A stretch of 64,000 nucleotides of DNA from Paenibacillus sp. BIC5C1. Its GTDB lineage: Bacteria > Bacillota > Bacilli > Paenibacillales > Paenibacillaceae. The DNA lies in assembly GCF_032399705.1 (NCBI RefSeq), contig NZ_CP135922.1:1178001-1242000 (forward strand), given 5' to 3'. The notes under the pieces are model-generated. The model searched no databases. It saw only the letters and a program-made list of their open reading frames with translations, and had not been told where the DNA came from. Of the stretch, positions 26,468 to 61,420 are shown one piece after another. The position numbers and the translations under genes were made by a program. Every line of letters starts with the position of its first letter. Position 1 is the stretch's first letter.

Positions 26468-28429
26468 TTGAATAGTTTACTACGTAAAGTTGCAGTAACG
26501 GCCTTGTCCGTGACGATGGTATCATCATCTTCTTTTGCCCTGATAGGAAGTCCAAACGCTGCGTTTGCCGCAGAGGATACAAGCACCAGCACAGGCGTCA
26601 CGCAAGCCTATGAATCGTTGTTCCAAACGGACAACGTCATTGATGTGAATGTTACGATTGATGATGCAGACTGGAAGAGCATGCTCGAAAGCCCGCTGGA
26701 TAAGGATTATAAGAAGGTAAGTGTGGAAGTGGACGGCAACAAGCTGGATAACGTTGGTTTCTCCACCAAGGGTAATCTGACTTTGAAAGCCGTAGCCTCG
26801 ATGCAAGATTCGGACCGTTACAGCTTCAGACTGAAGTTTGATAAATACGACAAAACACAAACCCTGCTCGGTTTGGATAAAATGGTCCTGAACAACAACT
26901 ATGCCGATCCGTCGTATATGCGTGAAGTTCTTCATTATGAAGCGCTGCGCAGCATTGGCATGGATGTACCGATGACAAACTACGTTAATCTGTATGTAAA
27001 CGGCGAACTGGTTGGTTTCTATACCGGGGTCGAAGCAGTTGATGACAGCTACCTGGAACGCAATTACGGTGAAGATTATGAGGACGGTGTCCTCTACGAT
27101 ACGGATGAGAAGAGTTACCTGCAATATTCAGAAGGCAGTGACTACAGCACGATCACAGAAGATTTGGGTACGGACGAGAACAAAACCAAACTCAAAAATT
27201 TTATCAAAACGCTGAACGACATGCCTGAAGGTGAAAAAGGCGATATCGAGAGTGTGCTGGATGTGGATTCGGCACTGCAATATATCGCGGGCAACATGGT
27301 CTTTGGCAACTATGACAGCTATAACGGCGACAAAGGGCATAACTACATGCTTTACAGCGACGCGGATGGCAAATTCACAGTAGTACCTTGGGACTTTAAC
27401 ATGTCCTTCAATGGATACTCGGGTGGCGGCGGACGTGGAACAACGACAACCGGATCAACCACAACCAACACCAACGCGACAAACGTATCCGTGGACGAGC
27501 CAGTACTGGGCATTAGCATGGAAAATGTACCGATGATCAACAACCTGCTGGCCGTGCCTGAGTATAAAGAAAAATACTTGAGCTACGTCAATGAGTTGAC
27601 GGATTATCTGGAAGGCATTCAGGATCACATCACAGGTCTGGCTGATATCATTCGTCCATATGTAGAAGCCGATCCAACGAAGTTCTACACAACCGAGCAG
27701 TTTGAATCCAACATTGCATACTCTGCCAACGCTGATGCAACAGGCGGTATGGGTGGCATGGGTGGTACACCACCAGAAGGATTCGAAGGCATGACACCGC
27801 CAGAAGGTTTTGAAGGTATGACACCTCCCGATGGTATGACACCACCGGATGGCACAACGGGAACAGGAACAACAGACAGCACAGGCAATACTCAGACACG
27901 TCCTGGCGGTAACTTTGGCGGAGGCGGAGGTATGGGCTCGATGGCAGCGGGATCGCTGACAACGTTTGCCCTGAACCGACTTGCCAATCTGCAAGAGCAG
28001 CTTGGACGTGAAGTAACACCTCTGCCGGAGACTTCAGAAGATACAGGCGCGGATAACGGAACAGGAACAACAGACAAAGCAATTACTGTATCCCTTGATG
28101 GAAAAGCGATTACGTTCCCGGATCAGGACCCGCTAGAGCAAAGTGGCCGGGTTATGGTACCCGTGAACGCTATCCTTGAAGCTTTGGGTGCAGAAGTGAC
28201 GTGGGACAAAACAGCGAAAACCGTAACAGCCGTTCTGAATGACCAGACGCTTGTACTCCAGATCGGAAGCAGCACGGCAACGGTGAATGGTGAAACGCTC
28301 GAAATTGATGCACCAGCCATTATCAAAAACAGTCGCACACTTGTGCCGGTACGCTTCATCTCTGAAGGACTGGGACTGACCGTGGATTGGGATCAAACGG
28401 CTGCACAAGTAACACTTACATCCAAATAA
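26468..28429 (+). CDS. Secreted CotH-kinase-like protein with C-terminal copper-amine-oxidase-N-type domain
   Basis: 653 aa from a TTG with AAGGAGGA 8 bases upstream. The signal peptide ends near AFAAED (about residue 36). A CotH-like domain (about 45-420) includes VGFSTKGN, RYSFRLKFDKYDK, LNNNYADPSYMRE and VPWDFNMSFNG, the atypical protein-kinase signatures of CotH. A low-complexity linker repeats MTPPEGFEG/MTPPDG and ends in a poly-Gly run. The C-terminal ~110 residues are a stalk-like copper amine oxidase N-terminal domain (VMVPVNAILEALGAEVTW; TLVPVRFISEGLGLTVDW), common in Paenibacillus surface proteins. Phosphorylation of extracellular proteins is known for CotH; the target here is unknown. 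Confidence 0.88.
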   Translation: MNSLLRKVAVTALSVTMVSSSSFALIGSPNAAFAAEDTSTSTGVTQAYESLFQTDNVIDVNVTIDDADWKSMLESPLDKDYKKVSVEVDGNKLDNVGFSTKGNLTLKAVASMQDSDRYSFRLKFDKYDKTQTLLGLDKMVLNNNYADPSYMREVLHYEALRSIGMDVPMTNYVNLYVNGELVGFYTGVEAVDDSYLERNYGEDYEDGVLYDTDEKSYLQYSEGSDYSTITEDLGTDENKTKLKNFIKTLNDMPEGEKGDIESVLDVDSALQYIAGNMVFGNYDSYNGDKGHNYMLYSDADGKFTVVPWDFNMSFNGYSGGGGRGTTTTGSTTTNTNATNVSVDEPVLGISMENVPMINNLLAVPEYKEKYLSYVNELTDYLEGIQDHITGLADIIRPYVEADPTKFYTTEQFESNIAYSANADATGGMGGMGGTPPEGFEGMTPPEGFEGMTPPDGMTPPDGTTGTGTTDSTGNTQTRPGGNFGGGGGMGSMAAGSLTTFALNRLANLQEQLGREVTPLPETSEDTGADNGTGTTDKAITVSLDGKAITFPDQDPLEQSGRVMVPVNAILEALGAEVTWDKTAKTVTAVLNDQTLVLQIGSSTATVNGETLEIDAPAIIKNSRTLVPVRFISEGLGLTVDWDQTAAQVTLTSK

Positions 28430-28472
28430 AAAAATTCTCCGGTAGAGTAGCGTTGTTCTATGGAGAACGAGA

Positions 28473-28504
28473 AAAGGGATTCGATGATCAGATCGAATCC
28501 CTTT
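28473..28504 (+). terminator. Terminator after the CotH-like gene
   Basis: AAAGGGATTCGAT/ATCGAATCCCTTT is a perfect 13-bp inverted repeat with a 6-base loop. Confidence 0.75.
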
Positions 28505-28746
28505 CTGTGCTGCTTTAATCCAGTTCCAAGTTACCATTTAAAATTATACATGTATCCGAGAGGGAGAAAACTCAAACGGAGCTCAATCAGTAATGTTTGG
28601 GGTCATTATATCTTGAATTGTTTAAGCTTGTCAGTACAACAATGTTAAAATTTACTATCATATAGGTATTATGCTTGAACTGTATTTCTAGATTCAACCA
28701 GATCTTCTGAGTTATTGTATATCTCATCAAATAAGTAATCAGATTT
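28505..28746. other. AT-rich gap at the left edge of the island
   Basis: Base composition falls from about half GC to strongly AT-rich in this stretch, which lies between the CotH terminator and the ATPase-gene fragment. Beyond the stop at 28747 on the minus strand the same frame stays open for 25 further codons (to about 28669) with protein-like composition. Otherwise I see nothing here. Confidence 0.5.
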
Positions 28747-29371
28747 CTAAGTTAGTTCACTAAGTGATAGTTTTAAAACTATTAGATCCACATTGTTCAA
28801 ATCATTTTTATTATTAATAACGACATTAATGTCGTTAGTGTTAAAGAAAAATAACCCATTATCAACTTTTTGTTCCATAAATTCTCTAATATGATCTTTT
28901 TGTTGATTTAATTTTTCCCACAATGAAGATGCAAGGTCAAATTCCCAATTTTCAGTAGGGAGAATATTCTTAAGAACTACCTCAAGTGCAGCCTTCTTAA
29001 AGCCATTATTTGAATTTTGGGCTTCCAAGATGTATTTTTTTAAGAAATGGTAAGAGAGGCAAATAACGTTCTCGTTTAATATTAAATTAGCAATATCTGA
29101 TTTATGTGTGTGTAATCTCTCTGTTATGAAAAGATGGTTATGGTAGTTAAGCCAATCTTCATTTATAAAATTAGCTTTTATCTGGTAAACAAATTTATAT
29201 GATTCAGTTAATCTATTAATGTTGCTGACAGTAGCAAGAGTAACATTATTCTTACTCATTATAATTTCAGGAGTGGTTATCTGTTTGCTGACAAGTTGAA
29301 CAATATCTGTCTTAGCCCTTATTGGAGAGTCTATCGTAATGTGTTTTTTTAAATATTCTTTAATGTTAGTA
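28747..29371 (-). pseudogene. C-terminal fragment of the IS-interrupted AlbA_2/ATPase gene
   Basis: The frame is open from the IS junction (29371) to the stop at 28747, about 207 codons. An internal ATG at 29259 (MSKNNVTLATVSN) could be mistaken for a start, but it has no ribosome site and the frame is coding-like right up to the IS boundary. Removing the IS and one TAGTA duplication joins this frame exactly to the upstream gene. The fragment is helical, Asn/Lys-rich and without a recognised domain. The TAG stop is followed in frame by 25 more protein-like codons (KSDYLFDEIYNNSEDL...), so the stop itself may be a nonsense mutation. Confidence 0.7.
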
Positions 29372-30875
29372 ACTCAACTTTCGCACCTAGAATATTGAGT
29401 CAACCCCTTGTGGGCGTAAGAGAATTTAAACATTACTGTTTCTCTTGACAAAAAAAACACCTTGCTTGTTTAGTATCATGGAAGTGCGACCAACCATGAA
29501 CAAGAAAGGTGTGTAACCCTATGTTACAACAACATTCCCTGTCTGACCAGTCTCGTTTTTCTAAACTTTTTGCTTCACTTCACATCGGGAAAGCTTTGCG
29601 GCATGCAGGGATTTCCAAATCGTTTGGTCTTTCGAGTTTAGCTATTTTTCGAATCGTGTTCTCCTTGGTTTTTGAAGGGAAGAACTGGTTTCGCCTGTTG
29701 GAGAGTAACCGCGGAGCCGATCTGCCAGGTAAAGATGTCATCTATCGATTCTTGAATCAATCTTCCTTTGCTTGGCGGCGATTTTTGCAGACATTAAGTC
29801 TCCAGATCGTACGCTATTTTGAAACGCTCATTTCCTCCAAACGCGTACGTGTATTTATTGTGGATGATTCGGTGCTCAGCCGAAACCGGAGTAAAAAAGC
29901 AGAACTGCTGGCACGTGTGTTTGACCATTCTGCAGGCAGGTACATCAAAGGCTACACGATGCTCACACTCGGCTGGTCGGACGGTTTTAGCTTTGCACCG
30001 CTCGATTTTGTCATGCTGTCTTCCGCCAAACTGGCCAATCGTTTTTGCGAAATGGCCTCCCATCTCTCGAAACGCAGCCATGGATACAAACGCCGAATAG
30101 AGTCTTTTTCTCGGAAGCCCGATGCCGTTGTGGGCTTGTTAGATCGGGCGTTAAAAGCCAGCTTCACGGCGGATTATGTTTTGATGGACAGCTGGTTTAC
30201 GCAGGTTCCATTACTTCGCGAGCTCACAGCCAGAGGTCTGCCGGTGATTGGAATGATTAAAGAAATGAAGCAACGGTATCTCGTACAGGGACAGCGTATG
30301 ACGCTAGGTGCTGTGTTTCAAAGCCTGCCTAAATCGAGTTCAAAAGACATCAAAGGCTCCGTGGTCGTACATACGTCGTGCGGTCTGCCCGTGAAGCTTG
30401 TTTTTGTGCGCAATCGGAATAAAAGACGGGAATGGCTTACCATTTTAAGTACAGACGTCACGCTGGATGCGGCAGAAATTGTACGAATTTACGGCATGCG
30501 TTGGAGTATTGAGACCTTTTTTAAAGTGACCAAAAGCTATTTAAAACTAGGAACCGAATTTCAGGGCCGTTCCTTCGACCAACTGATTAGCCACACGACG
30601 GTTGTATTCAGCCGTTATTTAGCGATGGAATACGAACGACGCGAAACCAATGATGACCGAACCCTGGGAGGACTCTTTTTCCTCTTTGCCGATGAGGTTC
30701 GGGATCTGGACTTTCAAACCGCGCTTCAGCAGCTGATGCGTTTATTTCTCGACATGTCTCAAGCGAAAACGAAAACGAACAAAATGGACGTTTTTTGTCA
30801 ACTACAAGAATGGATCTCCGGTTTACCCAGCTATATCAAGGGTTTGTTTGGAGATTTAAGCTGCGAAAGTTGAGT
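29372..30875 (+). mobile_element. IS4-family insertion sequence, complete, 1504 bp
   Basis: The ends are the perfect 14-bp inverted repeats ACTCAACTTTCGCA (29372-29385) and its complement (30862-30875). The 5-bp direct repeat TAGTA flanks the element on both sides (29367-29371 and 30876-30880), which is a target-site duplication. One transposase gene fills the element. Base composition is higher in GC than the gene it interrupts. The intact ends and open transposase suggest a fairly recent insertion. Confidence 0.92.
29521..30873 (+). CDS. IS4-family transposase (DDE, YREK signature)
   Basis: About 450 aa from the ATG at 29521 (AAGAAAGGTG 9 bases upstream). The first catalytic Asp is in VDDSVLSRNRSKK and the second in LMDSWFT. 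The third acidic residue is in YGMRWSIETFFKVTK, which fits the IS4 Y-(2)-R-(3)-E-(6)-K signature exactly. Its stop overlaps the right inverted repeat. No frameshift or internal stop is seen, so the transposase looks functional. Confidence 0.93.
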   Translation: MLQQHSLSDQSRFSKLFASLHIGKALRHAGISKSFGLSSLAIFRIVFSLVFEGKNWFRLLESNRGADLPGKDVIYRFLNQSSFAWRRFLQTLSLQIVRYFETLISSKRVRVFIVDDSVLSRNRSKKAELLARVFDHSAGRYIKGYTMLTLGWSDGFSFAPLDFVMLSSAKLANRFCEMASHLSKRSHGYKRRIESFSRKPDAVVGLLDRALKASFTADYVLMDSWFTQVPLLRELTARGLPVIGMIKEMKQRYLVQGQRMTLGAVFQSLPKSSSKDIKGSVVVHTSCGLPVKLVFVRNRNKRREWLTILSTDVTLDAAEIVRIYGMRWSIETFFKVTKSYLKLGTEFQGRSFDQLISHTTVVFSRYLAMEYERRETNDDRTLGGLFFLFADEVRDLDFQTALQQLMRLFLDMSQAKTKTNKMDVFCQLQEWISGLPSYIKGLFGDLSCES

Positions 30876-33123
30876 TAGTAATGTTATAGTTATATATTTT
30901 TTTAACAATAGAGGAGGAGATTTCTTTTCCGATTTGTGCTGAATTTCGAGAAAGTTCAATTTTATATTCCTCTTCAGTAGTTTTGCCAACGATTACAATA
31001 AAGGGGATGACATCTTTCTTTAAGTAACTATAGTCGTCAGTTTTATAAGTAACATTTACACCTATATCATTGTAAAGGGCAACATTTTTTTGATGTAGTA
31101 GATCTTTGATGAATTTATCTTCATTATTAAGATCAAGATACTTAGCATGGTCAAACATGTAAACTCTTGCAGATCCAGACTCATAAATTCTCTCGAAATA
31201 TTTACTTTCCAAATCTATACTTGGTAATCTCCATTCTTCATTATTATATCTAAGGGTTACTTGATATGTAGTACTGCTTAGGGCCCATTTTTCAATATTG
31301 AAATCTCTTTTTAGTTTATTTATATCTGAGGAACTGACACGCTTGTTCAGCTCAATTTTAATTCGTGTATAACTTTCAAATTTATTTAATACTTTTATTT
31401 TTTTTAGATCAGAAGTTTCTATATTACCTTCGAAGAGTTGAAAACTATACTCAAATTCTTCATTTATTTTCTTTGTAACCACACTGACTTTTTTGCCGAT
31501 CAAAAACATACTCAATGCGCCCACTCCAAATTTTCCTACCATCGCTACATCAGAAGACTTCTTTTTGGATTTCCCAACGGTTAAATAATGATTACTTATA
31601 TCTGATAGATCCATGCCTACTCCGTTATCCGAGAATAATAAAATATCCTTGTTTTCTTCTTTTAATACTTCAATTTTAATTATTCCATTACGCGATTCAA
31701 GTCCAGTACTTTTACATGCATCGATTGCATTCTGCAACAATTCGCGCAATGCTACACTCATTTTATTGCTTTGTTCATATAGAGGTTCTATTAACAATGG
31801 AATGACATCTTCAGAGACCCTGAACTTGATATCAGACTGGATAAACATTTGTTGGACTTCTTTGTCAAATTTAATACCTCTAATATTTAAAATTTTCACA
31901 TTATTATAAAAATATTTTATCTTATTTACATAAAGTATAAATTTATTACAGTTATTAACAATTCTATTCATTTTGTCATATCCGCTTTTCTTAATATTGT
32001 CTTTATTGAAGTTAATGATTATTTCTTCATTTTGTATTTCATACTCGAAATATTTGTCTCTTAATACTTGGTATAAACTGTAGCTGGTACAAAATAAAGA
32101 AATGATTAATGAGTGTTCACCACCATCCAGGAACCCGTCCATCTTTTCGAAGTCATCTTTATTTTCATGAATTAATTTACAGATGTAGTCATTATTGTTT
32201 GGGTCATTATTCTCGTCAGCAATCTTAAATAATCCACCTTGAATTATAAGATTATTGAAAATCTCCAACAAGCGATACTTGAATAAACTATTATTAGTTG
32301 AAATAATATCCAATGATTCTTTATCTAAAGTTAAATTCATACATTCCAAAAATAGCATCATTTCGTTAAAGTATTCATGATCACTAGCAGCATTAATATT
32401 AAAATATCCATAGATATTTCGTTGTTTTCTATAAAAAAGATCCGATAGATCTGAACGGGTTAGAATTCCGGTTGAACTCCCGCGGCGGATATATCCAATT
32501 CCTTGACACTTCATTTCAAAATTATTATTATGTTTTTTCTCAAATGATTTTTTGAAAAGATAAGGTTGATCTCTATTTTCTTTTTTTATTTTAATAATGT
32601 TTAGGTTTTTACCTTCATAATTAAAATTTGTTATTATCTCTATTTGAGGAAATGGTTCGATATAATTCTCAATCAATTGTTGGATGTTATTTTCTTCAAT
32701 AATTTCCTGAGTCCCACAAATGTTAAATTCCCTACTCTCTTTGTCCTCTGCGATGCCAATAATAATATATCTTTCTAGATCAATACTAACATTTAAAAAA
32801 GCTATACAATCTTTTAAGAATTCAAATCGACCTTTGAGGTAATTCTTGTTGTTTACTTGATACCACTCTTCTTTGAAATCTAGTAGGATGCTTTCTGTCC
32901 CTCCGCGTATGAGGTTGTTGATATACTCAGATTCATAGTTATTTAAAATGCTCATTATGTTTACCACCACTTTCGTATTTTTAATGCAATTTAAGTATTC
33001 GACAAACCATTCTATTAAACCTCCAAAAATTAACAAAAAAATTATTAATACAGAGGTGATAGATGGATCTACATCTATGTTTAAAATAGAGAATTTTCCG
33101 ATATATTTGGAAACAGTCCTCAC
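30856..33123 (-). CDS. AlbA_2 (Schlafen-like) plus Hsp90/MORC-like ATPase protein, 3' end replaced by IS sequence
   Basis: Up to 755 aa from a GTG at 33123. A possible membrane helix (SVLIIFLLIFGGLIEWF, about 23-40) precedes an AlbA_2-like domain (about 65-230; ESILLDFKEEW, IIIGIAEDKESREF and the GIGYIRRGSST end motif). A less conserved region follows. A GHKL ATPase module (about 445-545) has the N-box LRELLQNAIDACK, the G1 box DNGVGM and a GKFGVG G2-type loop. The last few codons come from the IS. Strongly AT-rich against its neighbours. An internal ATG at 32955 (MSILNNYESEY) is an alternative start that would remove the membrane helix. Function unknown; the architecture suggests a defence or stress ATPase. 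Confidence 0.8.
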   Translation of the reverse strand: MRTVSKYIGKFSILNIDVDPSITSVLIIFLLIFGGLIEWFVEYLNCIKNTKVVVNIMSILNNYESEYINNLIRGGTESILLDFKEEWYQVNNKNYLKGRFEFLKDCIAFLNVSIDLERYIIIGIAEDKESREFNICGTQEIIEENNIQQLIENYIEPFPQIEIITNFNYEGKNLNIIKIKKENRDQPYLFKKSFEKKHNNNFEMKCQGIGYIRRGSSTGILTRSDLSDLFYRKQRNIYGYFNINAASDHEYFNEMMLFLECMNLTLDKESLDIISTNNSLFKYRLLEIFNNLIIQGGLFKIADENNDPNNNDYICKLIHENKDDFEKMDGFLDGGEHSLIISLFCTSYSLYQVLRDKYFEYEIQNEEIIINFNKDNIKKSGYDKMNRIVNNCNKFILYVNKIKYFYNNVKILNIRGIKFDKEVQQMFIQSDIKFRVSEDVIPLLIEPLYEQSNKMSVALRELLQNAIDACKSTGLESRNGIIKIEVLKEENKDILLFSDNGVGMDLSDISNHYLTVGKSKKKSSDVAMVGKFGVGALSMFLIGKKVSVVTKKINEEFEYSFQLFEGNIETSDLKKIKVLNKFESYTRIKIELNKRVSSSDINKLKRDFNIEKWALSSTTYQVTLRYNNEEWRLPSIDLESKYFERIYESGSARVYMFDHAKYLDLNNEDKFIKDLLHQKNVALYNDIGVNVTYKTDDYSYLKKDVIPFIVIVGKTTEEEYKIELSRNSAQIGKEISSSIVKKIYNYNITNSTFAA

Positions 33124-33299
33124 TGTAAACTTAAGAATATAAGCTAATTTGCTTCGTATTTTATTGACTACAGATTAAAGTTCAATTCGTACGAAGAAGT
33201 TAAGAGAGCCAATCCATCTGTAGGTGGACTTAACTCGCGCTGAATTCGGCTACACTGAATGTAGATCAGAGAACATGTGGAGAAGGTGAGGAAAAAAAC

Positions 33300-33746
33300 A
33301 TGATGAATATTGTGATTGTAGCGGTCATTGTTCTATTGTTATCTCTAAGGGAGAAGGAAGTGAAGACATCCCGCTTATGGATATTGCCAGCGATCCTTGC
33401 GTATTGGGTGCTTTCGAGTGTAGTAAATACACCATTAACGGTGGGCAACATCCTGTTATATATTGTTTTTCTCATTATAGGTTGCGGGATTGGAGCGTGG
33501 CGTGTACATCTGGAACAGCTTCGAATCCATCCAACGACAGGCAAAATGATGTCCAAGGGATCGCTGGCCAGCAGCTTGCTTCTGATCGCGGTTATGGTGT
33601 TAAGACAGCTCGCCAGCCAATGGGATGTGCATCATGCGGTGGTTTCACTGAGTAGTGCTCTGTTGTTTCTGCCTCTGGGAAGCATCGCTGCCCGGCGTTA
33701 TTTTCTGTATGCCAAAGTCCAGCGCTTTCAAGGCAGAGGTGTATAA
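33300..33746 (+). CDS. CcdC-like/DUF1453 membrane protein
   Basis: 148 aa with about four membrane helices (residues 2-15, 28-45, 50-68 and 90-140 region) and a short basic C-terminus (RRYFLYAKVQRFQGRG). GAGAAGGTGAGG precedes the ATG; a second ATG follows immediately at 33303. It lies 33 bp before the histidine kinase gene and is probably co-transcribed with it. The CcdC similarity is by general pattern only. Confidence 0.6.
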   Translation: MMNIVIVAVIVLLLSLREKEVKTSRLWILPAILAYWVLSSVVNTPLTVGNILLYIVFLIIGCGIGAWRVHLEQLRIHPTTGKMMSKGSLASSLLLIAVMVLRQLASQWDVHHAVVSLSSALLFLPLGSIAARRYFLYAKVQRFQGRGV

Positions 33747-52863: not shown

Positions 52864-53199
52864 TTAATGAAATGTAACCCATATTATACCGTAAAGTGGA
52901 AAGATCATAACGCTAAAGATCAGCATGAAACCACCGACCTTGTAGGCTACTTTTGTACCAAAGTGAGAATGATATTTGCGTGCGATCAAAACGGAAGATA
53001 ACCAAAAGATTATAGCTACCATAAAGGGAATGTGAAATCCTTGATGACCATTGCTATAGATAGGCAAGTTCAGTAGATTAAACAAATAGTGGCTGATTTG
53101 TACCTTTTCTGCTCCCCAACCATAATTAAAGGCAAACCCCATAGCGAGCACAAGCAGAGAAAGTGTCCCGATGCCCAAAGGTTTTCTTTGTTTTATCAT
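52864..53199 (-). CDS. Small membrane protein, function unknown
   Basis: 111 aa with about three hydrophobic segments (residues 10-27, 57-75 and 88-108) and a basic N-terminus (MIKQRKPLGIG). GGAGGGAT precedes the ATG. It is convergent with mglC. I recognise no family; the HSHFGTKVAYKVGG loop is the only feature between helices 2 and 3. Confidence 0.6.
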   Translation of the reverse strand: MIKQRKPLGIGTLSLLVLAMGFAFNYGWGAEKVQISHYLFNLLNLPIYSNGHQGFHIPFMVAIIFWLSSVLIARKYHSHFGTKVAYKVGGFMLIFSVMIFPLYGIIWVTFH

Positions 53200-53347
53200 G
53201 CTTATCCCTCCATAACCAAGGTGATATCCTAAATAAATCCATTAATGTATTTTAACACAGTGTTGATCAATGTGATAGGAGGATTATTTCGTAATATGCA
53301 CTTTCCTATAAACCGTTTGTCCTATTTTAATTATAAATTTATACATT

Positions 53348-53458
53348 CATGTGAATTTGACAAGCCTCCAATAATCGACAACATCAGCTAATCATAACCG
53401 ATATAATACATGTAAATAGGATCTGGATATGAGAATTATGTCAAAGGGGGCGAGGCTG
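53348..53458 (+). repeat. ~110-bp upstream repeat, copy A (before the GGDEF-kinase)
   Basis: From CATGTGAATTTGAC through the TATAAT-containing GATATAATACATG to AAAGGGGGCGAGG. It aligns with 55190-55300 at about 90 percent or better over ~110 bp, with eight or nine substitutions and one inserted G. It contains the probable promoter and ribosome site of the following gene. Confidence 0.85.
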
Positions 53459-53459
53459 T

Positions 53460-55055
53460 TTGCTGAGTTACACGATGAAAATGGTTATTTTCCCGCTAGG
53501 ATGTCTGCTTGTTATACTGTCCTCTTATTTTCTAGGGCTTACTTCCCACCTTGTGTTAATGATATGTGCTGGTGCGTTATTTGTGGCAAGTGTGTATAAG
53601 GAAAAACAGTATCCGGTATTGCGTAACTTTCATTGGATCTTTCTTGGCATATTCCATTATTTCAGTGAACTTAACTGGTGCAATATGTTGTATTACCTGC
53701 TCATCATGTCGATGATTCAGGATAAACAGCGGATTACGCAGACGTTACCCATTTCAATGTTGATTGTTTTTGAATATACCGTGATTCGGCTATCGTATGT
53801 GACGATAGATACATATAGTTTGCTAGTGTCGATATTTGACATGTTAACTGCAATTGTCATTATCTTTTTGTATCATACCTTGCTTAACAGCGAAGCAGAG
53901 AAGCGCAGACTTCGGGAGGAAAATCATTTTCTAACCCTTCATGATCCGCTCACTGGATTGCTGAATTACGAGGGATATATGAACATACTGAAGAAGACAG
54001 TGGACGAGCAACCATCTTTTTTGCTGATTATCATGAACATTCAGAATTTCAATGGATTTGATAAAGAGGTTGAAGACAACTGGAGTCATGTAATCAAAGC
54101 GACAGGCGAGAGTGTTTTGAAACAGTTTGCAGATGCATATGGCATATCTCGGTATGCGGGGGATCGTTATGCTGTCGTTTTGCCTGAAATACAAAATATC
54201 GAAGAACGCATGGCGTTACTGCTGTCCGGGGAGTTAAGGGGCTTACAAATAAACTACAGCATATCCCTATATCCTGGAATGTCCGAGACGTTGCAACACT
54301 TTATCGCGGTGTCGGAGGAGAGGATGTTGCAGCAGCAGCGCAGCAAATGGTTAAAAAACGGAGAGGAGGTCTTCCGTTCCGAAAGACTTCGGGCTGTTGG
54401 TGAGTTAGCCGCGGGCATGGCTCATGAAATTCGCAACCCCCTGACTGCCATTCGTGGTTTCCTGCAGCTTTCTCGGGGACAGGCCTTCAATATCGCTCCA
54501 TGGTATGAGGTCATTATGGGTGAGATCACACGGGTAACAGAGCTGACGGCTGAGTTTTTACAGTTCTCCAAGCCGCATGCCAATCACATGAAACCTGAAC
54601 GAGTAGAGCTGTGTCTTGAACGGGTCATGTCGTTAACCGGATCGGATGCAGCATCACGGGGGCATCGAATTACACTGGAGATGACAGGTGAGTCGGTCGT
54701 GGTCAATATGGATCGGGACAAGATCGTACAGGTTCTGATTAATCTGATTCGTAATGCTTTTGAAGCGATGGAAGATCCGGGTGAAGTGCATATTGATTTG
54801 CATCATGATGGTGAGAAGGCGCTTATCTCGATTACCGATACGGGCAGCGGTATCCCTGAGAACTCTCTGGTGACGATCTTTAATCCATTTTATACGACAA
54901 AGGAAGAAGGTACAGGACTTGGACTGGCACTCTGTCAGAAAATCGCTCAGGATCATCATGGCAAAATTACCGTTCATAGTGAAATGGGGATTGGCTCTAC
55001 ATTTACCCTTCATTTACCAACAAATAAAAACGCTGAACTGCTCCCCGTCAAGTAG
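53460..55055 (+). CDS. Histidine kinase with membrane sensor and degenerate GGDEF domain
   Basis: 531 aa from a TTG with AAAGGGGG about 8 bases upstream. Five or six membrane helices (about 1-150), then a GGDEF-like domain (about 160-290) starting HDPLTGLLNYEGY but with RYAGDRYAV in place of the catalytic GGDEF motif. The HisKA H-box follows (AAGMAHEIRNPLTAIRGFL, about residue 320), then N-box NLIRNAFEAM, DTGSGI and GTGLGLALC. The diguanylate-cyclase site is lost, so this domain probably binds a ligand. The kinase core resembles sporulation-type KinA/B kinases. No cognate regulator is adjacent. Confidence 0.85.
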   Translation: MLSYTMKMVIFPLGCLLVILSSYFLGLTSHLVLMICAGALFVASVYKEKQYPVLRNFHWIFLGIFHYFSELNWCNMLYYLLIMSMIQDKQRITQTLPISMLIVFEYTVIRLSYVTIDTYSLLVSIFDMLTAIVIIFLYHTLLNSEAEKRRLREENHFLTLHDPLTGLLNYEGYMNILKKTVDEQPSFLLIIMNIQNFNGFDKEVEDNWSHVIKATGESVLKQFADAYGISRYAGDRYAVVLPEIQNIEERMALLLSGELRGLQINYSISLYPGMSETLQHFIAVSEERMLQQQRSKWLKNGEEVFRSERLRAVGELAAGMAHEIRNPLTAIRGFLQLSRGQAFNIAPWYEVIMGEITRVTELTAEFLQFSKPHANHMKPERVELCLERVMSLTGSDAASRGHRITLEMTGESVVVNMDRDKIVQVLINLIRNAFEAMEDPGEVHIDLHHDGEKALISITDTGSGIPENSLVTIFNPFYTTKEEGTGLGLALCQKIAQDHHGKITVHSEMGIGSTFTLHLPTNKNAELLPVK

Positions 55056-55086
55056 ACCGTTTAATAAACAAAAAAATGGATCGTTT

Positions 55087-55126
55087 AGAAACCTTAGCTC
55101 GGATGACATGCTAAGGTTTCTTGTTA
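55087..55126 (+). terminator. Terminator after the GGDEF-kinase gene
   Basis: A perfect 12-bp inverted repeat, AGAAACCTTAGC/GCTAAGGTTTCT (55087-55098, 55110-55121), with a short T-rich tail. Confidence 0.75.
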
Positions 55127-55189
55127 TGCTGATCTTTGGCGAAGCTTTTTCAGCGTACTTGCGGATCATCTTATTCTCAGCGACATATC

Positions 55190-55300
55190 CATGTGAATTT
55201 GACGAGCCTCCAAATATCGACAACATCAGCTAATCGTGATCGATATAATACATGTAAATAGGATCCGAATATGAGAATTATGTCAAAGGGGGGCGATGCT
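55190..55300 (+). repeat. ~110-bp upstream repeat, copy B (before lpxC)
   Basis: A near copy of 53348-53458 ending in AAAGGGGGGCGATGCT directly before the lpxC start. The -10-like TATAAT, the TAAATAGGATC block and the ribosome site are conserved, so the lpx genes appear to be driven by a duplicate of the kinase promoter region. Confidence 0.85.
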
Positions 55301-55983
55301 ATGTACCAAAAAACGATTCGTAATAGTTTTACATTAGACGGCATTGCTGTACATAGTGGGAATTTGTCAGCGATAACTCTGCATTCTGCACAACCAAACA
55401 CAGGTATTGTTTTTAGAAGAGTGGATGTAGATCCATATGAAATTATTGAAGCTAGAATCGGTAATGTATCCAATACGGAACGTTGCACACAGCTTAAAAA
55501 CATGCATGGATACACCGTATCTATGGTTGAACATACATTGTCTGCAATTCGAGGGATGGGCATTGATAACGTGATTATTGATGTTAATGGTGAAGAATTA
55601 CCTATTTTTGATGGCAGCTCTACCAATATTGCAACCAAGATTTCAGAAGTTGGCCATCTGCAGCAAGAAGTCAAAATAAAGTACCTTCATTTACAACAAA
55701 AAAAATTGCGCCAGCTAGGACATTTTGTTTTGAAGAAGAAATAATGTACTTAAAAAGCAAAGGTTTAATTCAAGGAGCTTCTTTAGACCATGGAATAGTT
55801 ATAGGTGAAAAGGAAATTTATCCCGATTTACGTTTTTCTGATGAATTGTCTCGTCACAAGCTGCTGGATCTTATTGGCGATTTAGCTCTGAATCCTCCTT
55901 TTCATGCAAAAATCATAGGATCGGGAACGTCTCATTATTTGAACACTCTTTTTGCTCAAGAATTATTAAATAATCTAATTTAA
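55301..55983 (+). pseudogene. lpxC: lpxC, internally deleted and frameshifted (UDP-3-O-acyl-GlcNAc deacetylase)
   Basis: The first frame from the ATG at 55301 encodes LpxC domain I (GIAVHSG; NTGIVFRRVD; the zinc-ligand His in SMVEHTLSAI; LPIFDGSS), then goes out of phase and stops at 55744. A second frame, already LpxC-like from about 55690 (KKIAPARTFCFEEEI), continues through GASLDHGIVIG, the RHKLLDLIGD zinc/catalytic motif and a final SGTSHYLN histidine to 55983. About 50-70 residues of domain II are missing between the two. LpxC deacetylates UDP-3-O-acyl-GlcNAc in lipid A synthesis; this copy is very probably inactive. It is AT-rich, like lpxD and lpxA after it. Confidence 0.8.
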
Positions 55984-56003
55984 ATACAAAAGGAGACCAT
56001 ATT

Positions 56004-57029
56004 ATGCCATGTAATTTGAATGAAATCTCTGAACAGATAAATGGGATTCTAATAGGTGATGGCGATGTCGTTATAACAGGCGTAGGTTCAATTAATGCTG
56101 CTAAAGAGGGAGATATTGCTTTTGTTACGGATAAAAATCTAAATAAATTAGATCAATGTAAGGCTTCGGCTTTCATTGTGCCAGAAACGACAATAATAGA
56201 ATTTAAAGTACCTGTTATTAAGGTGAAAAATCCCCGACTCGATTTTATTCGCCTAATTGAAATGTTTAGCGAGAAAACCAAAAGCAGTGGTGTATTATCA
56301 TCAGAAGCAATTGATCCTTCAGTAACGTTAGGCTGTAATGTGCAGATCGACGAATTCGCGGTAATCAAAGAAGATGTATCTATTGGGGATCATACTATTA
56401 TTTCCGCGCATTCATTTATTGGTAAGAATGTGACCATTGGAACGAATTGCTTGATCCACCCTAATGTCACTGTTCTACATGATACTTTCATCGGAGATAA
56501 TGCCATCATTCACTCAGGCGCAGTGATTGGCGCTGACGGCTTTGGTTTTGAATGGGATGGTCAAAAACAAGTTAAGATCCCACATATCGGAAATGTCGTT
56601 ATTTTTGATGATGTTGAGATTGGAGCAAATACCACTATTGATCGCGGAACGATTGATTCAACAACCATTGGTAAAGGAACTAAAATGGACAACCTTATTC
56701 AAATTGGCCATAATGTTCAAATTGGTGAGCACTGCATTATCGCAGGCACAAGTGCAATTGGGGGCTCATCAAAAATTGGTAATCGCGTCATAATGGCTGG
56801 TGGAAGTGCGGTAATTAATAATATCACCATTGGAGACGGCTGCGTTGTTTTAGCTAAAACCATGGTTACTAAAAACATGCCCGAGAACTCAATGGTGTCA
56901 GGGTATACAGCTCGCTCACATAAGAGACAACTACGAGAATCCGCTGCACTTTCCAGACTCCCCCAAACGATAAAAAAACTAAATAAAAAACTTGATGAAC
57001 TTAGCAAAACAAAGGAAGGTGCTAAGTGA
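56004..57029 (+). CDS. lpxD: LpxD-like UDP-3-O-acylglucosamine N-acyltransferase
   Basis: 341 aa, normal LpxD length. An N-terminal uridine-binding domain (ITGVGSINAAKEGDIAFVTD) is followed by a left-handed beta-helix of hexapeptide repeats with VIGADGFGFEW, IPHIGNVVI and the active-site region QIGHNVQIGEHCIIAGTSAIGG. A C-terminal helical extension ends the protein. AAAGGAGA precedes the ATG. AT-rich. In Gram-negatives it adds the N-linked acyl chain in lipid A synthesis, after LpxC. The gene overlaps lpxA by 4 bp. Confidence 0.9.
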   Translation: MPCNLNEISEQINGILIGDGDVVITGVGSINAAKEGDIAFVTDKNLNKLDQCKASAFIVPETTIIEFKVPVIKVKNPRLDFIRLIEMFSEKTKSSGVLSSEAIDPSVTLGCNVQIDEFAVIKEDVSIGDHTIISAHSFIGKNVTIGTNCLIHPNVTVLHDTFIGDNAIIHSGAVIGADGFGFEWDGQKQVKIPHIGNVVIFDDVEIGANTTIDRGTIDSTTIGKGTKMDNLIQIGHNVQIGEHCIIAGTSAIGGSSKIGNRVIMAGGSAVINNITIGDGCVVLAKTMVTKNMPENSMVSGYTARSHKRQLRESAALSRLPQTIKKLNKKLDELSKTKEGAK

Positions 57030-57802
57030 TACATCAGTCAGCCATTATTCATCCTACAGCAGTAATTGGGGACAATGTCGAAGTCGGACCTTTCAGTATC
57101 ATTGAAGAAAATTCAAAAATAGGTAGCGGTTGTAGGATTGGAAGTCACGTTATCATAGGGGCTAACACGGTATTGGGGGAGAATAACTATATCTCACATG
57201 GTGCCATTATCGGCTCAGACCCACAAGATAAAAGTTACCAAGGCGAAGAATCGTATCTCATTATTGGAGATAATAATACCGTGAGAGAGTATGTCACTAT
57301 ATGTAAAGGCACATCAAAAGGAGATTGTTTCACGAGAGTAGGAAATAACAACTTTATTATGAACTATGCTCATATCGCACATGATGTATTGATGGGAGAC
57401 CATAACGTCATCGTCAATAATGTGCAAATTGGCGGACATGTTATTGTTGAAGACTATATCACATTTGGTTGTGGTTCTGGTGTACACCAATCATGTAACA
57501 TTGGAAGGTTTGCAATGATTGGAGCGGGAAGTAAAGTTTCACAAGATATCGTTCCATATTCTTTAGCGGATGGTCCGCGTTCGTACATACATGGTATTAA
57601 TATCATTGGTCTAAGAAGAAATGGATTCTCAAATGAAGAGATAAGCACGATAAAAAAGATTAATACCATTTTATTTCGCCAAAAGCGAACGCTCGATCAA
57701 TCTATTGAAGAAATAAACAACTTGCCTCCTTCTGAATTTAAAGAACACACATTGAATTTTCTAAATAAATCTACACGCGGAATTGTACGAATGAAGCGAT
57801 AA
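57026..57802 (+). CDS. lpxA: LpxA-like UDP-GlcNAc O-acyltransferase
   Basis: 258 aa, the typical LpxA length, from a GTG overlapping the lpxD stop. The left-handed beta-helix starts HQSAIIHPTAVIGDNVEVGPF. Family motifs GSDPQDKSYQGE, YVTICKGT and MNYAHIAHDVLMGDHN (catalytic His region) are intact. A C-terminal helical domain begins INIIGLRRNGF. It catalyses the first lipid A step, O-acylation of UDP-GlcNAc, in Gram-negative bacteria. Here lpxB, lpxH, lpxK and fabZ are absent from the window. Confidence 0.92.
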   Translation: MIHQSAIIHPTAVIGDNVEVGPFSIIEENSKIGSGCRIGSHVIIGANTVLGENNYISHGAIIGSDPQDKSYQGEESYLIIGDNNTVREYVTICKGTSKGDCFTRVGNNNFIMNYAHIAHDVLMGDHNVIVNNVQIGGHVIVEDYITFGCGSGVHQSCNIGRFAMIGAGSKVSQDIVPYSLADGPRSYIHGINIIGLRRNGFSNEEISTIKKINTILFRQKRTLDQSIEEINNLPPSEFKEHTLNFLNKSTRGIVRMKR

Positions 57803-57811
57803 AATGGAAAT

Positions 57812-57853
57812 GCCGCAAAGGTCCGGAATAAAACGGAACTTATGCGGCGTTTT
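57812..57853. terminator. Terminator between lpxA and the ABC exporter
   Basis: GCCGCA (57812-57817) pairs with TGCGGC (57843-57848), with an inner TCCG/CGGA and TTTT after. Confidence 0.65.
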
Positions 57854-57879
57854 CGTCTTGTCTTTAGGGGCAAGGGGCG

Positions 57880-59706
57880 TTAATTTTGTTGACCCTGATG
57901 CAACTGATAGTAGAAACCTTGGTGTTGCAACAACTCATCATGGCTGCCTCGTTCGGCGATCTTGCCGTCATCAATAACCAGGATCTGATCGGCTTCACGA
58001 ATCGTACTCAGCCTGTGGGCAATGACGAAGCTGGTGCGATCCTTCATCAAGGTGCGCATCGCTTCCTGAATCTGCATTTCGGTGCGTGTATCAATGCTGC
58101 TGGTCGCTTCATCCAGAATAAGAATCGCAGGATCAGCGAGAATGGCACGAGCGATGGTTAACAGTTGTCGCTGTCCCTGACTTAGATTGCTGCCACCGGA
58201 AATGATCGGGGTATCATAACCCTGCGATAATTTGCGGATGAAGGAGTGGGCATTGGCCAACTTCGCTGCTTGCTGGATTTGTTCGTCCGTTGCATCCGGT
58301 TTGCCATAGGCAATATTGTCACGGATGGTGCCGGAGAACAGATAAGCGTCCTGTAACACAATGCCAAGTTCGCGCCTTAGCTGGTCTTTCTCCAGTTCGG
58401 AGATGTCACAGCCATCAATGGTAATCCGTCCGCCCGTAATCTCGTAAAAACGGGGCAGCAGGTTGATGATCGTTGTTTTACCCGCTCCAGTCGGGCCCAC
58501 AAGTGCAATCATCTCGCCTGGCTTGGCGGTGAAGCTGACTTTTTTCAATATTTCCCTCTCGGAGTTATACCCAAAGGATACATCTTCAAATACAACTTTA
58601 CCCTGGATCTGCTGCAGTTGTTTCTTCTGTTCTTCCACATATTCACTGGGTGTATCAATAATGTCGAATACGCGCTCGGCACCTGCGATAGCTGCCTGAA
58701 TCAGGTTATATTGGTTCGCCAAATCATTGATGGGCCGCTCAATCTGGCGGGAGTAAGCAAGGAAGCTTACAATCAGCCCGATGGACGTCAGATCATGATA
58801 AGCCATCCATCCACCTACGGCTGCCAGTATGGCAAAGCCGATATTGTTCATAACGTTCATCGTTGGCCCAACCAGACCCGATACGCTTTGAGCTTGGGTA
58901 CTGGACGTGCGAAGCTTCTCGTTCAGATTCTGAAAATGGTTTTGTGCCTGCTCCTGGCGGTTATAGGCTGCAACCACCTTTTGTCCGGCAATCGTTTCCT
59001 GAGCGTAGCCATTAAGCTCACCAAGCAACTTTTGCTGGGCGGTAAAATGTTTGCGTGTTCTTGAAGCGATCAGCCGAGTAGCGATCGTAATCAGGGGAAC
59101 CGTGACCAGACTGAGCAGTGTCAGACGGACATCCAGGGCTAACATAATCGACAGGGAGCCAACGAGCAAGATGGCGCTGGACATCAATTGGGTTACACTT
59201 TGATTCAGTGTTGTGGACACGTTATCGATATCATTGGTAGCCCGGCTCATCAGATCACCGCTCTGATTTTTGTCAAAAAAACTGATTGGCAGCTGCTGCA
59301 GCCGTGAAAACAGAGCATGACGCAAATCCTTCACAGTCAGTTGGGACACACCGATCATGACATAGGATTGAGCCCACATCATGAACGAGCCGAGGACGTA
59401 TACGGTCAGCAATAACATGCAGTCTTTCAGCAGACCGTCCGTAATTTTGGGAACGATATGTTCATTGACCGCACGGCCGAGCAGATAAGGTCCTGCCAGA
59501 TTAAGTAACGTTCCAAGAGCCGTCAGTACCAGAGCGGTGATAACCCCTTTGCGATGACGTCCCATGTATGACCACACTCGGATGATGACGTGCCGGGCGT
59601 TCTTGGCTCTTACTTTGGGAACCGGACCTCGGCCGGGTGGCCCAGGTCTTCCGATCATCGGTGGGACAACGGTCTGATGGATGGAGGAAGAAGCGTTTTT
59701 AGCCAA
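57880..59706 (-). CDS. ABC exporter half-transporter, second subunit
   Basis: 608 aa if translation starts at the TTG at 59706, which has AAGGAGG 8 bases upstream; the ATG at 59715 abuts the ribosome site. A Pro/Gly-rich N-terminal tail (GRPGPPGRGPVPKV) leads to six membrane helices (about 55-340). The ATPase has Walker A GPTGAGKTT, Q-loop VLQDAYLFSG, signature LSQGQRQL, Walker B ILILDEATSSID and H-loop AHRLS. It overlaps the upstream subunit's stop by 8 bp. Heterodimeric multidrug or lipid exporter of the YfiBC/BmrCD type. Confidence 0.9.
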   Translation of the reverse strand: MAKNASSSIHQTVVPPMIGRPGPPGRGPVPKVRAKNARHVIIRVWSYMGRHRKGVITALVLTALGTLLNLAGPYLLGRAVNEHIVPKITDGLLKDCMLLLTVYVLGSFMMWAQSYVMIGVSQLTVKDLRHALFSRLQQLPISFFDKNQSGDLMSRATNDIDNVSTTLNQSVTQLMSSAILLVGSLSIMLALDVRLTLLSLVTVPLITIATRLIASRTRKHFTAQQKLLGELNGYAQETIAGQKVVAAYNRQEQAQNHFQNLNEKLRTSSTQAQSVSGLVGPTMNVMNNIGFAILAAVGGWMAYHDLTSIGLIVSFLAYSRQIERPINDLANQYNLIQAAIAGAERVFDIIDTPSEYVEEQKKQLQQIQGKVVFEDVSFGYNSEREILKKVSFTAKPGEMIALVGPTGAGKTTIINLLPRFYEITGGRITIDGCDISELEKDQLRRELGIVLQDAYLFSGTIRDNIAYGKPDATDEQIQQAAKLANAHSFIRKLSQGYDTPIISGGSNLSQGQRQLLTIARAILADPAILILDEATSSIDTRTEMQIQEAMRTLMKDRTSFVIAHRLSTIREADQILVIDDGKIAERGSHDELLQHQGFYYQLHQGQQN

Positions 59707-61420
59707 ATTGAACATCCTCCTTCCGCTGCTGCGAATAATAGATGGCTTGGTAATGTGACGAATGGGCCATGAGATGTTCATGTGTACCACTTGCCACGAT
59801 TTCTCCCTCATCAAGCACGTAAATACAGTCTGCATCCTTTACAGAAGAGATCCGTTGTGCAATCAAGAAGGTGGTACTATTTTTCATTAGTGAATGCAGC
59901 GCCTTCTGAATGATTGCTTCGGTACGCAGATCGACGGCACTGGTGCTGTCGTCCAGAATCAGAACCTCCGGTTGCATGAGCAGGGCACGGGCGATAGAAA
60001 TCCGTTGTTTCTGCCCACCTGAGAGATTGACCCCGCGCTGGCCCAGCTCCGTGTCATATCCATCTTTCAGATTCATAATAAAATCATCAGCCGCCGCCGC
60101 TTGAGCTGCGGCACGCAGTTCAGCTTCCGTTGCATCAGGTCTGCCAAAGCAGATGTTATCCCGGATACTGCCACTGAACAGGATGGATTCCTGTAATACG
60201 ATGGACACACGGCTGCGAAGATCCTGTAGATCCCAGTTACGCACGTTCACTCCATTCACGAGCACTTCACCCTGTGAGGCATCATACAAGCGGGGGATCA
60301 GCTGTACAAGTGATGTTTTGCCTGATCCTGTAGATCCGAGCAGAGCCACTTTTTCTCCCGGCCGAGCCGTCAGTGTAATTCCGGAGAGTGTATGTTCTCC
60401 ATCATAGCGGAAATAGACATCCCTGAATTCCACCTGACCTGCTCCTTTACGAGACATATCATCTCCCGATTGAATATCAGGCTGGGTGTGAAGCACCTCG
60501 TTGATGCGTGTTGCAGATACTTTCGCGCGGGAGAAGCTCATCATCATCATGCCGATTGAAGTGAGCGACGAGAGTACAACGGTTACGTAGTTGATAAAAG
60601 CAATCAAATCCCCGGCGGCAATATCGCCTCCCACCACCTGAAAGCCTCCAAACCACAGCACCGCTACAATGGTTGCATTCAGCATCAGGCTTAATACCGG
60701 TGCATTCAGCGATACGATGCGCCAGGCTTTCACTGCGGTATGGGTATAATCTTCATTGGCTTGCTGAAAACGCTTCTTCTCCTGACGTGCGCGTGCAAAA
60801 GCTTTGACGACACGAATGCCGGCCAGATTTTCCTGAAGCACCGCGTTCACCTTGTCGAGCTTGTTCTGAACGCTGGCGAACAGCGGATAGGAAGCGGATA
60901 TGAGGATGTATAAGATGATAAACAGAATCGGTACGGACAAAATGAGAATGAGCGCCAGTTTGACACTGATCGTAAACGCCATAATAATACTGCCGATAAT
61001 CAGCATCGGCGAACGGATAAACATACGCAGAAGCATCTGTACAAAGGTCTGCATCTGGGTGATATCACTCGTCAGACGAGTGATAAGCGAGCCCTCCTGG
61101 AAGCTATCCAGATTACGGAACGAGAACTTCTGGATATGATCAAATAATTCCTGGCGCAGATCAGTGCCGTATCCAACAGCCGCTTTGCTTGAAAACAGCG
61201 TACATCCTGCACCGCCAACCCATCCGATTAACGCAAAAAGAAGCATAAACAAACCTGTAGTCACAATGTGGGACAGGTTCCCTGCAAGAACACCATCATC
61301 CACAATGCTGGACATCAGCTTGGGTTGAAGCAGATCCATGGCAACCTCAAGGACCATGAGCAGCGGTGCAAGAATGGCCGCTGACTTATACGGGGTAAGA
61401 AATCGTTTTAACGTCCACAA
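59699..61420 (-). CDS. ABC exporter half-transporter, first subunit
   Basis: 573 aa from a TTG with GAGGTGA about 10 bases upstream. Six membrane helices (about 12-300). ATPase: Walker A GSTGSGKTS, Q-loop VLQESILFSG, signature LSGGQKQR, Walker B VLILDDSTSAVD (Asp in place of the catalytic Glu) and H-loop AQRIS (Gln for His). These degenerate catalytic residues mark it as the inactive-site partner of a heterodimer; the other subunit has the canonical Glu and His. It lies 70 bp after the MarR gene. Confidence 0.92.
   Translation of the reverse strand: MWTLKRFLTPYKSAAILAPLLMVLEVAMDLLQPKLMSSIVDDGVLAGNLSHIVTTGLFMLLFALIGWVGGAGCTLFSSKAAVGYGTDLRQELFDHIQKFSFRNLDSFQEGSLITRLTSDITQMQTFVQMLLRMFIRSPMLIIGSIIMAFTISVKLALILILSVPILFIILYILISASYPLFASVQNKLDKVNAVLQENLAGIRVVKAFARARQEKKRFQQANEDYTHTAVKAWRIVSLNAPVLSLMLNATIVAVLWFGGFQVVGGDIAAGDLIAFINYVTVVLSSLTSIGMMMMSFSRAKVSATRINEVLHTQPDIQSGDDMSRKGAGQVEFRDVYFRYDGEHTLSGITLTARPGEKVALLGSTGSGKTSLVQLIPRLYDASQGEVLVNGVNVRNWDLQDLRSRVSIVLQESILFSGSIRDNICFGRPDATEAELRAAAQAAAADDFIMNLKDGYDTELGQRGVNLSGGQKQRISIARALLMQPEVLILDDSTSAVDLRTEAIIQKALHSLMKNSTTFLIAQRISSVKDADCIYVLDEGEIVASGTHEHLMAHSSHYQAIYYSQQRKEDVQFG

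Follow-up and report, generated by a model that had tools for sequence, protein, structure and literature searches.

An lpxC-lpxD-lpxA cassette in Gram-positive Paenibacillus, disrupted at lpxC in strain BIC5C1 and probably serving something other than lipopolysaccharide

Paenibacillus sp. BIC5C1 was found to carry genes of the lipid A pathway in the order lpxC-lpxD-lpxA within a 64,000-nucleotide stretch of its genome (the window; positions 1178001-1242000 of a 7.08-Mb single contig). The cassette was probably acquired horizontally and, where complete, would carry out steps 1-3 of the Raetz route, supplying an acylated UDP-glucosamine for a use other than lipopolysaccharide (LPS); in this strain it has been disabled at lpxC. 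The genome clustered with Paenibacillus, together with strain NC1, and the closest named relative at the locus was a strain recorded as Paenibacillus taichungensis NC1 (L003), whose LpxA is 100% identical. Gene order and coordinates had been called correctly in a first-pass annotation of this DNA (window positions): lpxC at 55301..55983, lpxD at 56004..57029 and lpxA at 57026..57802, all on the + strand, with lpxD and lpxA overlapping by 4 bp. The cassette is flanked on the left by a sensor histidine kinase gene (53460..55055, + strand; HisKA and HATPase in Pfam, GGDEF below cut-off) and on the right by an ABC transporter gene that lies outside the cassette (57880..59835, - strand). The genes lpxD and lpxA had been described as AT-rich against their flanks, and this was borne out: GC content is 35.4, 39.0 and 37.6% in lpxC, lpxD and lpxA against 47.3% in the window, and GC3 is ~31% in lpxD and lpxA against 48-56% in three neighbouring genes.

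Both lpxD (341 aa) and lpxA (258 aa) are open and full length, as had been annotated. The two products pass the NCBIfam equivalog cut-offs: that of lpxD scored 322.9 bits on TIGR01853 (cut-off 242.5), with 58.4 against 30.8 bits for the N-terminal domain PF04613, and the lpxA product scored 301 bits on TIGR01852 (cut-off 231.05), with 77.6 against 24.5 bits for the C-terminal domain PF13720. The gene lpxC, which had been counted as a member of the cassette, is broken. It survives as two pieces in different frames, one at 55301-55744 and the other at about 55693-55983, which match PF03331 positions 1-128 and 173-267 and scored 108.7 and 55.5 bits, short of the 187.25-bit cut-off of TIGR00325. 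Alignment with the intact L003 copy placed a single 148-bp internal deletion in lpxC, which causes the frameshift. Outside lpxC few differences separate the window from L003, its nearest relative (lpxD, 5/1026 nt; lpxA, 3/777; kinase gene, 5/1596), which makes the break recent. An assembly error, for which it can be said that one genome alone has this exact lesion, is very improbable: the deletion is clean, the assembly is a single contig and the three neighbouring genes each differ from L003 at 3-5 positions, a combination that does not resemble a typical sequencing error.

Active-site positions were compared with those of E. coli LpxA, LpxD and LpxC, which belong to the same families, and most of the residues compared were conserved. 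His125 of LpxA, with its partner residues, is taken here to be catalytic, and His239 and His276 of LpxD are taken to be the active-site histidines. The window LpxA has the equivalents of H122, H125, H144 and H160 and differs from E. coli in having Ser for K76 and Arg for H191. Across the 25 loci aligned, the H122, H125 and H144 equivalents are conserved in all, and the K76 equivalent is lost except in G065, G031 and G032. Three LpxA proteins encoded without the other two genes (lone LpxA; G009, G024 and G039) have Leu at the H160 position and Lys or Asn at the R204 position but retain His125; a lone LpxA of G252 (L104) has Gln at the His160 position and His at that of Asp74. In LpxC, the equivalents of E. 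coli E78, H79, T191, H238, K239, D242, D246 and H265 are conserved in 18/18 intact loci, and the K143 position is Ser in the same 18. The LpxD H239 equivalent is conserved in 19/19 loci. Unlike E. coli LpxD, however, that of the window's type of locus (type A, below) lacks the His276 equivalent: Asn occupies the position in 12/12 type-A loci, window included, and His in the seven others, and eight further proteins aligned there have Ser (one), Asn (one) or His (six). The Asn in type-A LpxD and the Ser in LpxC leave activity uncertain.

The search for lpxB and lpxK that had been proposed with the first-pass annotation was run on 20 genomes, 17 of which hold lpxC or a piece of it; LpxK had no match and LpxB none over the curated cut-off, and positive controls were matched. 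Kdo transferase and Omp85/BamA each gave no match in 13 genomes, the window genome among them; the controls, which included E. coli, were matched. Lipid A would thus be unreachable by the known route. Sub-cut-off LpxB-like matches in 7 of the 20 genomes covered positions 158-288 only and were rejected, since they also occurred in 3/3 genomes without lpxC and since Bacillus subtilis and Lactococcus lactis match likewise below cut-off. E. coli has the whole lipid A pathway, whereas the Paenibacillus cassette comprises three genes, and no next-step gene was found travelling with it. Judged by the genes searched for, the cassette is not one for LPS synthesis.

These results bring close to refutation the view that the organism is a diderm, or that lipid A is made through unrecognised later enzymes. 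Such a view would account for the presence of lpx genes and for an ABC pair beside lpxA with MsbA-like scores, below the MsbA cut-off; it is scarcely credible in the face of the LpxK, LpxB, Kdo transferase and Omp85 searches, a broken lpxC in the window strain and the presence of the ABC gene in cassette-less genomes as well. The MsbA-like pair was rejected as part of the system because the ABC gene adjoins the kinase gene in 6 of 7 cassette-less genomes opened (within about 350 bp after it; in the other, G030, it falls outside the retrieved stretch). The host, for which a diderm identity had been named as the first way in which the annotation could fail, is a Paenibacillus.

In relatives with all three genes, UDP-3-O-acyl-GlcNAc would be made first and would then be deacetylated and N-acylated to UDP-2,3-diacylglucosamine; this product would pass to some non-LPS lipid or metabolite, because the enzymes and outer-membrane protein searched for were without a match or, for LpxB, without one over cut-off. 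In the window strain LpxA would still be able to act, the route would end there and LpxD would be left without its normal substrate. That one gene is broken here and that lpxA stands alone in some relatives also suggests that the cassette is probably for something other than LPS. Horizontal transfer and a different use of acylated UDP-GlcNAc had been the two readings offered at first; both survive, with partial support overall. The second is sustained by the searches above. The first is favoured by a restricted distribution, several genomic sites and movement between lineages, and does not require a direct diderm source.

Within the genus, LpxC was found in 17 of 75 genomes: 15 copies are intact, that of the window is broken and G042 has a fragment of 53 positions. 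In the family as a whole, LpxC was found in 20 of 394 genomes, with 18 intact copies and 2 of 19 genera represented. In an even draw of 398 genomes from the class, it occurred in five, all in the window's genus. Confined in the genomes searched to part of Paenibacillaceae, LpxC is not a broad native Bacilli family, the other circumstance that had been named as telling against the annotation. The LpxA C-terminal domain was found in 21/75 genus genomes, all in open frames, and in 28/394 family genomes (27 over cut-off, G133 below). Three of these 28 (G075, G104 and G266) are distant, at 34-38% identity, and lie in another gene cluster. The clusters holding this distant homologue in other genera (L107 6997-11384, L106 7955-12349 and L105 7346-11395) also encode a DegT aminotransferase, a beta-keto acid cleavage enzyme and a protein resembling glycosyltransferases (Pfam, L107 only), and perhaps specify an N-acylated amino sugar pathway.

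All three genes are retained in 15/75 genus genomes. At the type-A site, which is that of the window, lpxC-lpxD-lpxA lies between the histidine kinase and ABC genes, and 11 such loci have all three intact. At the type-B site the cassette lies beside a long hydrolase gene (G048, G065, G031 and G032; the hydrolase is GH95 in G048). A DegT aminotransferase gene lacking the first 67 profile positions adjoins lpxA in G048 (L070 8954-9835) and may or may not be left over from a larger cassette. Three further surroundings were found in genus g8 (L091, L092 and L093). Products of lpxC, lpxD and lpxA in G168 (L091) are 57-61% identical to the window type, and locus types other than the window's that have all three genes range from about 51 to 65%. 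In G009, G024 and G039 lpxA stands alone, and searches of these genomes for LpxC and LpxD drew no match. G252 has a cassette and, far from it, a second, lone lpxA (L104 9419-10195) whose product is 47% identical to the window's.

Type-A loci carry a duplicated 106-nt leader. Copy R1 (53345..53450, + strand) lies directly 5' of the kinase gene and copy R2 (55187..55292, + strand) directly 5' of lpxC, the two forming a direct repeat of 92% identity. The leader was matched in 48 of 75 genus genomes (two copies in 14, one in 34 and none in the other 27), and the 14 two-copy genomes are the same 14 whose type-A site contains lpxA. In seven of the one-copy genomes the locus was inspected, with the kinase gene present in 7/7 and an lpxA match in 0/7; the leader therefore looks native to the kinase gene, and the cassette holds a copy. 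R2 is probably a captured promoter or leader with its ribosome-binding site. A consensus scan gave 16 promoter-like sites where chance alone predicts 15.7, which neither supports nor excludes a promoter role. Terminator-like sites were absent against 3.6 expected, in a scan with a loop limit of 8 that did not report a perfect 12-bp inverted repeat read from the sequence at 55087..55121 (no strand assigned), a possible end of the kinase transcript. Rfam had 0 matches at E up to 1 over 53000-58000, and the idea that the leader contains a riboswitch or another known RNA was rejected.

Leader and lpx genes differ sharply from their flanks in divergence. Between the window and G012, G022 and G047, identity is 77-78% in R1, 77% in the kinase gene and 80-81% in the ABC gene, against 91-92% in R2 and 90-94% in lpxC, lpxD and lpxA. 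Likewise, dS between L003 and L004, L007 and L081 is 1.55-1.74 in the kinase gene and 0.18-0.30 in the lpx genes, and between the window and L081 it is 1.72 (kinase), 1.23 (ABC), 0.25 (lpxD) and 0.23 (lpxA); values above 1 are near saturation, and the contrast is large nonetheless. This contrast indicates that the leader-lpxCDA unit was replaced or introduced by recombination in one lineage, long after the split. Lineages of Paenibacillus have exchanged this unit with one another. G071 is intermediate, with lpx genes at 84-89% identity and dS of 0.38-0.66 against 1.6 in the kinase gene; the kinase itself may be fast-evolving. In four type-A genomes nearer the window dS is 0.21-0.31 for the ABC gene, only slightly above the 0.16-0.23 for lpxA, and the case for exchange is weak there.

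Phylogeny of LpxA, which had been suggested as a check, was examined in a tree of 83 rows built by a quick method from 74 of 120 listed proteins and 9 of 25 lpxA loci, excluding the distant LpxA of G075, G104 and G266. One starred branch set apart 24 rows, in which the Paenibacillaceae LpxA, both cassette-type and lone, are joined by allied metagenome proteins; the 59 rows on its other side include Halanaerobiales and diderm groups. The Paenibacillaceae LpxA thus form a single clade, so the window copy need not derive straight from a diderm; the sister of the clade was not resolved in this tree, and no original donor was indicated. Among the best listed matches outside Paenibacillaceae were LpxA proteins of Halanaerobiales (P0016, 52%; P0019, 50%). 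The lpx genes are AT-rich in the five type-A loci compared (35-39% GC in a 47% GC neighbourhood) and also in L092 and G048, and they match their surroundings (46-51% GC) in G065, G031, G032 and L093, which points to long residence in those four. A more AT-rich member of Paenibacillaceae may have been the near source of the type-A copy. No plasmid or phage carrier emerged: 66 plasmid-encoded LpxC relatives were all below 60% identity, the 12 listed being Gram-negative, and 13 phage-encoded LpxA relatives were likewise all below 60%.

Selection was assessed from pairwise dN/dS, pairs with dS <=0.05 being dropped (1/91 each for lpxA and kinase, 1/66 for lpxD). Type-A medians were 0.215 for lpxC (11 genes; range 0.115-0.491), 0.135 for lpxD (12 genes) and 0.171 for lpxA (14 genes), against 0.083 for the flanking kinase gene (14 genes) and 0.059 for the ABC gene (6 genes). 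The lpx values are about 1.6 to 3.6 times those of the flanks: all are well below 1, and the genes are less constrained than their neighbours. Purifying selection was seen on lpxC and lpxD both in type-A and in the three type-B loci compared. For the lone lpxA of G009, G024 and G039, dN/dS was 0.06-0.13 (Fisher p 2e-12 to 6e-20). In 3 of 14 type-A genomes (the window, G042 and G020) lpxC has been lost or broken, each time differently, and lpxA is open in all. G042 has a 128-aa open frame in which the start of lpxC seems to be fused to the end of lpxD. LpxC and LpxD gave no match in G020, where lpxA lies directly behind the leader. The kinase gene makes G020 and G042 sisters and lpxA does not, a conflict that implies two or three independent losses.

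This pattern could mean that LpxA is the part that matters, with a job of its own in acylating UDP-GlcNAc or another sugar, and that lpxC and lpxD are dispensable passengers being lost. The wider occurrence of lpxA than of intact lpxC in the genus, the strong purifying selection on lpxA where LpxC and LpxD are absent, lesions at three type-A loci that leave lpxA unharmed, and, in the three lone LpxA, the retention of His125 together with the loss of the residues equivalent to His160 and Arg204 would all follow. We nevertheless regard it as an unlikely account of the cassette, since all three genes persist together in those 15 genomes and selection acts on lpxC and lpxD as well; with so few loss events, moreover, the sparing of lpxA is suggestive only, and lesions missing one gene in three may be chance.

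Less likely again is a vestigial cassette, acquired by chance, of no use and decaying, whose intact copies are merely recent. Purifying selection on the lpx genes, active sites conserved among widely diverged locus types (identity to the window type about 51-65%), host-matched GC in four loci and exchange of the cassette as a unit with its leader all weigh against it, even though patchy presence, the broken lpxC of the window, the fusion remnant in G042, the lone lpxA in G020 and dN/dS above that of the flanks, with one lpxC pair reaching 0.49, are what decay would produce. The same elevated ratios, with losses of lpxC and lpxD in several lineages, were counted against the preferred reading, a horizontally acquired source of acylated UDP-glucosamine for non-LPS use, as fitting slow decay also. 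A fuller version, to which we give only tentative credence, is that the early reactions of the lipid A pathway have become a mobile accessory cassette supplying acylated UDP-glucosamine for a Gram-positive product, with LpxA free-standing in several lineages and changed in its substrate site.

In the literature searched, PMC11448272 (2024) alone bears directly on lpx genes in Paenibacillus. It reports that P. crassostreae has a partial lpxACD operon and that Cohnella abietis has lpxA alone, proposes that the genes came from Terrabacteria in a single transfer and suggests non-LPS roles, so that lpx genes in Gram-positive Paenibacillus are already in print. The P. crassostreae operon resembles the present cassette in its three genes, the absence of the remaining lipid A genes, a Gram-positive host and a proposed horizontal origin. 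One Paenibacillus with the operon is named there, whereas 18 intact lpxC at several sites were found here in 394 family genomes; further differences are the captured leader, lineage exchange, the broken lpxC of the window strain and the recurrent disappearance of lpxC and lpxD. The literature search found no report of the wider distribution, leader duplication, lineage exchange or a selected lone LpxA. Halanaerobiales and Negativicutes (PMC5007114) have homologous enzymes in an lpxACDIBK/waaM/waaA cluster but with a complete pathway and an outer membrane; in Paenibacillus there are three genes, differently ordered, and neither Omp85 nor Kdo transferase was matched. Should the enzymes prove active, lipid A precursors would be made in a monoderm that has no outer membrane, a natural reuse of the pathway that could yield a new acyl-sugar metabolite. 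By themselves lpx genes would be no marker of a diderm, which is relevant to tracing outer membrane loss in Bacillota.

A second AT-rich stretch lies elsewhere in the window, at 28400-33300 (~29-35% GC for the most part, ~45-48% across a transposase gene). It contains genes for a 454-aa DDE transposase (29509-30873) and, on the minus strand at 30856-33123, for a 755-aa protein that includes an HSP90-like ATPase domain.
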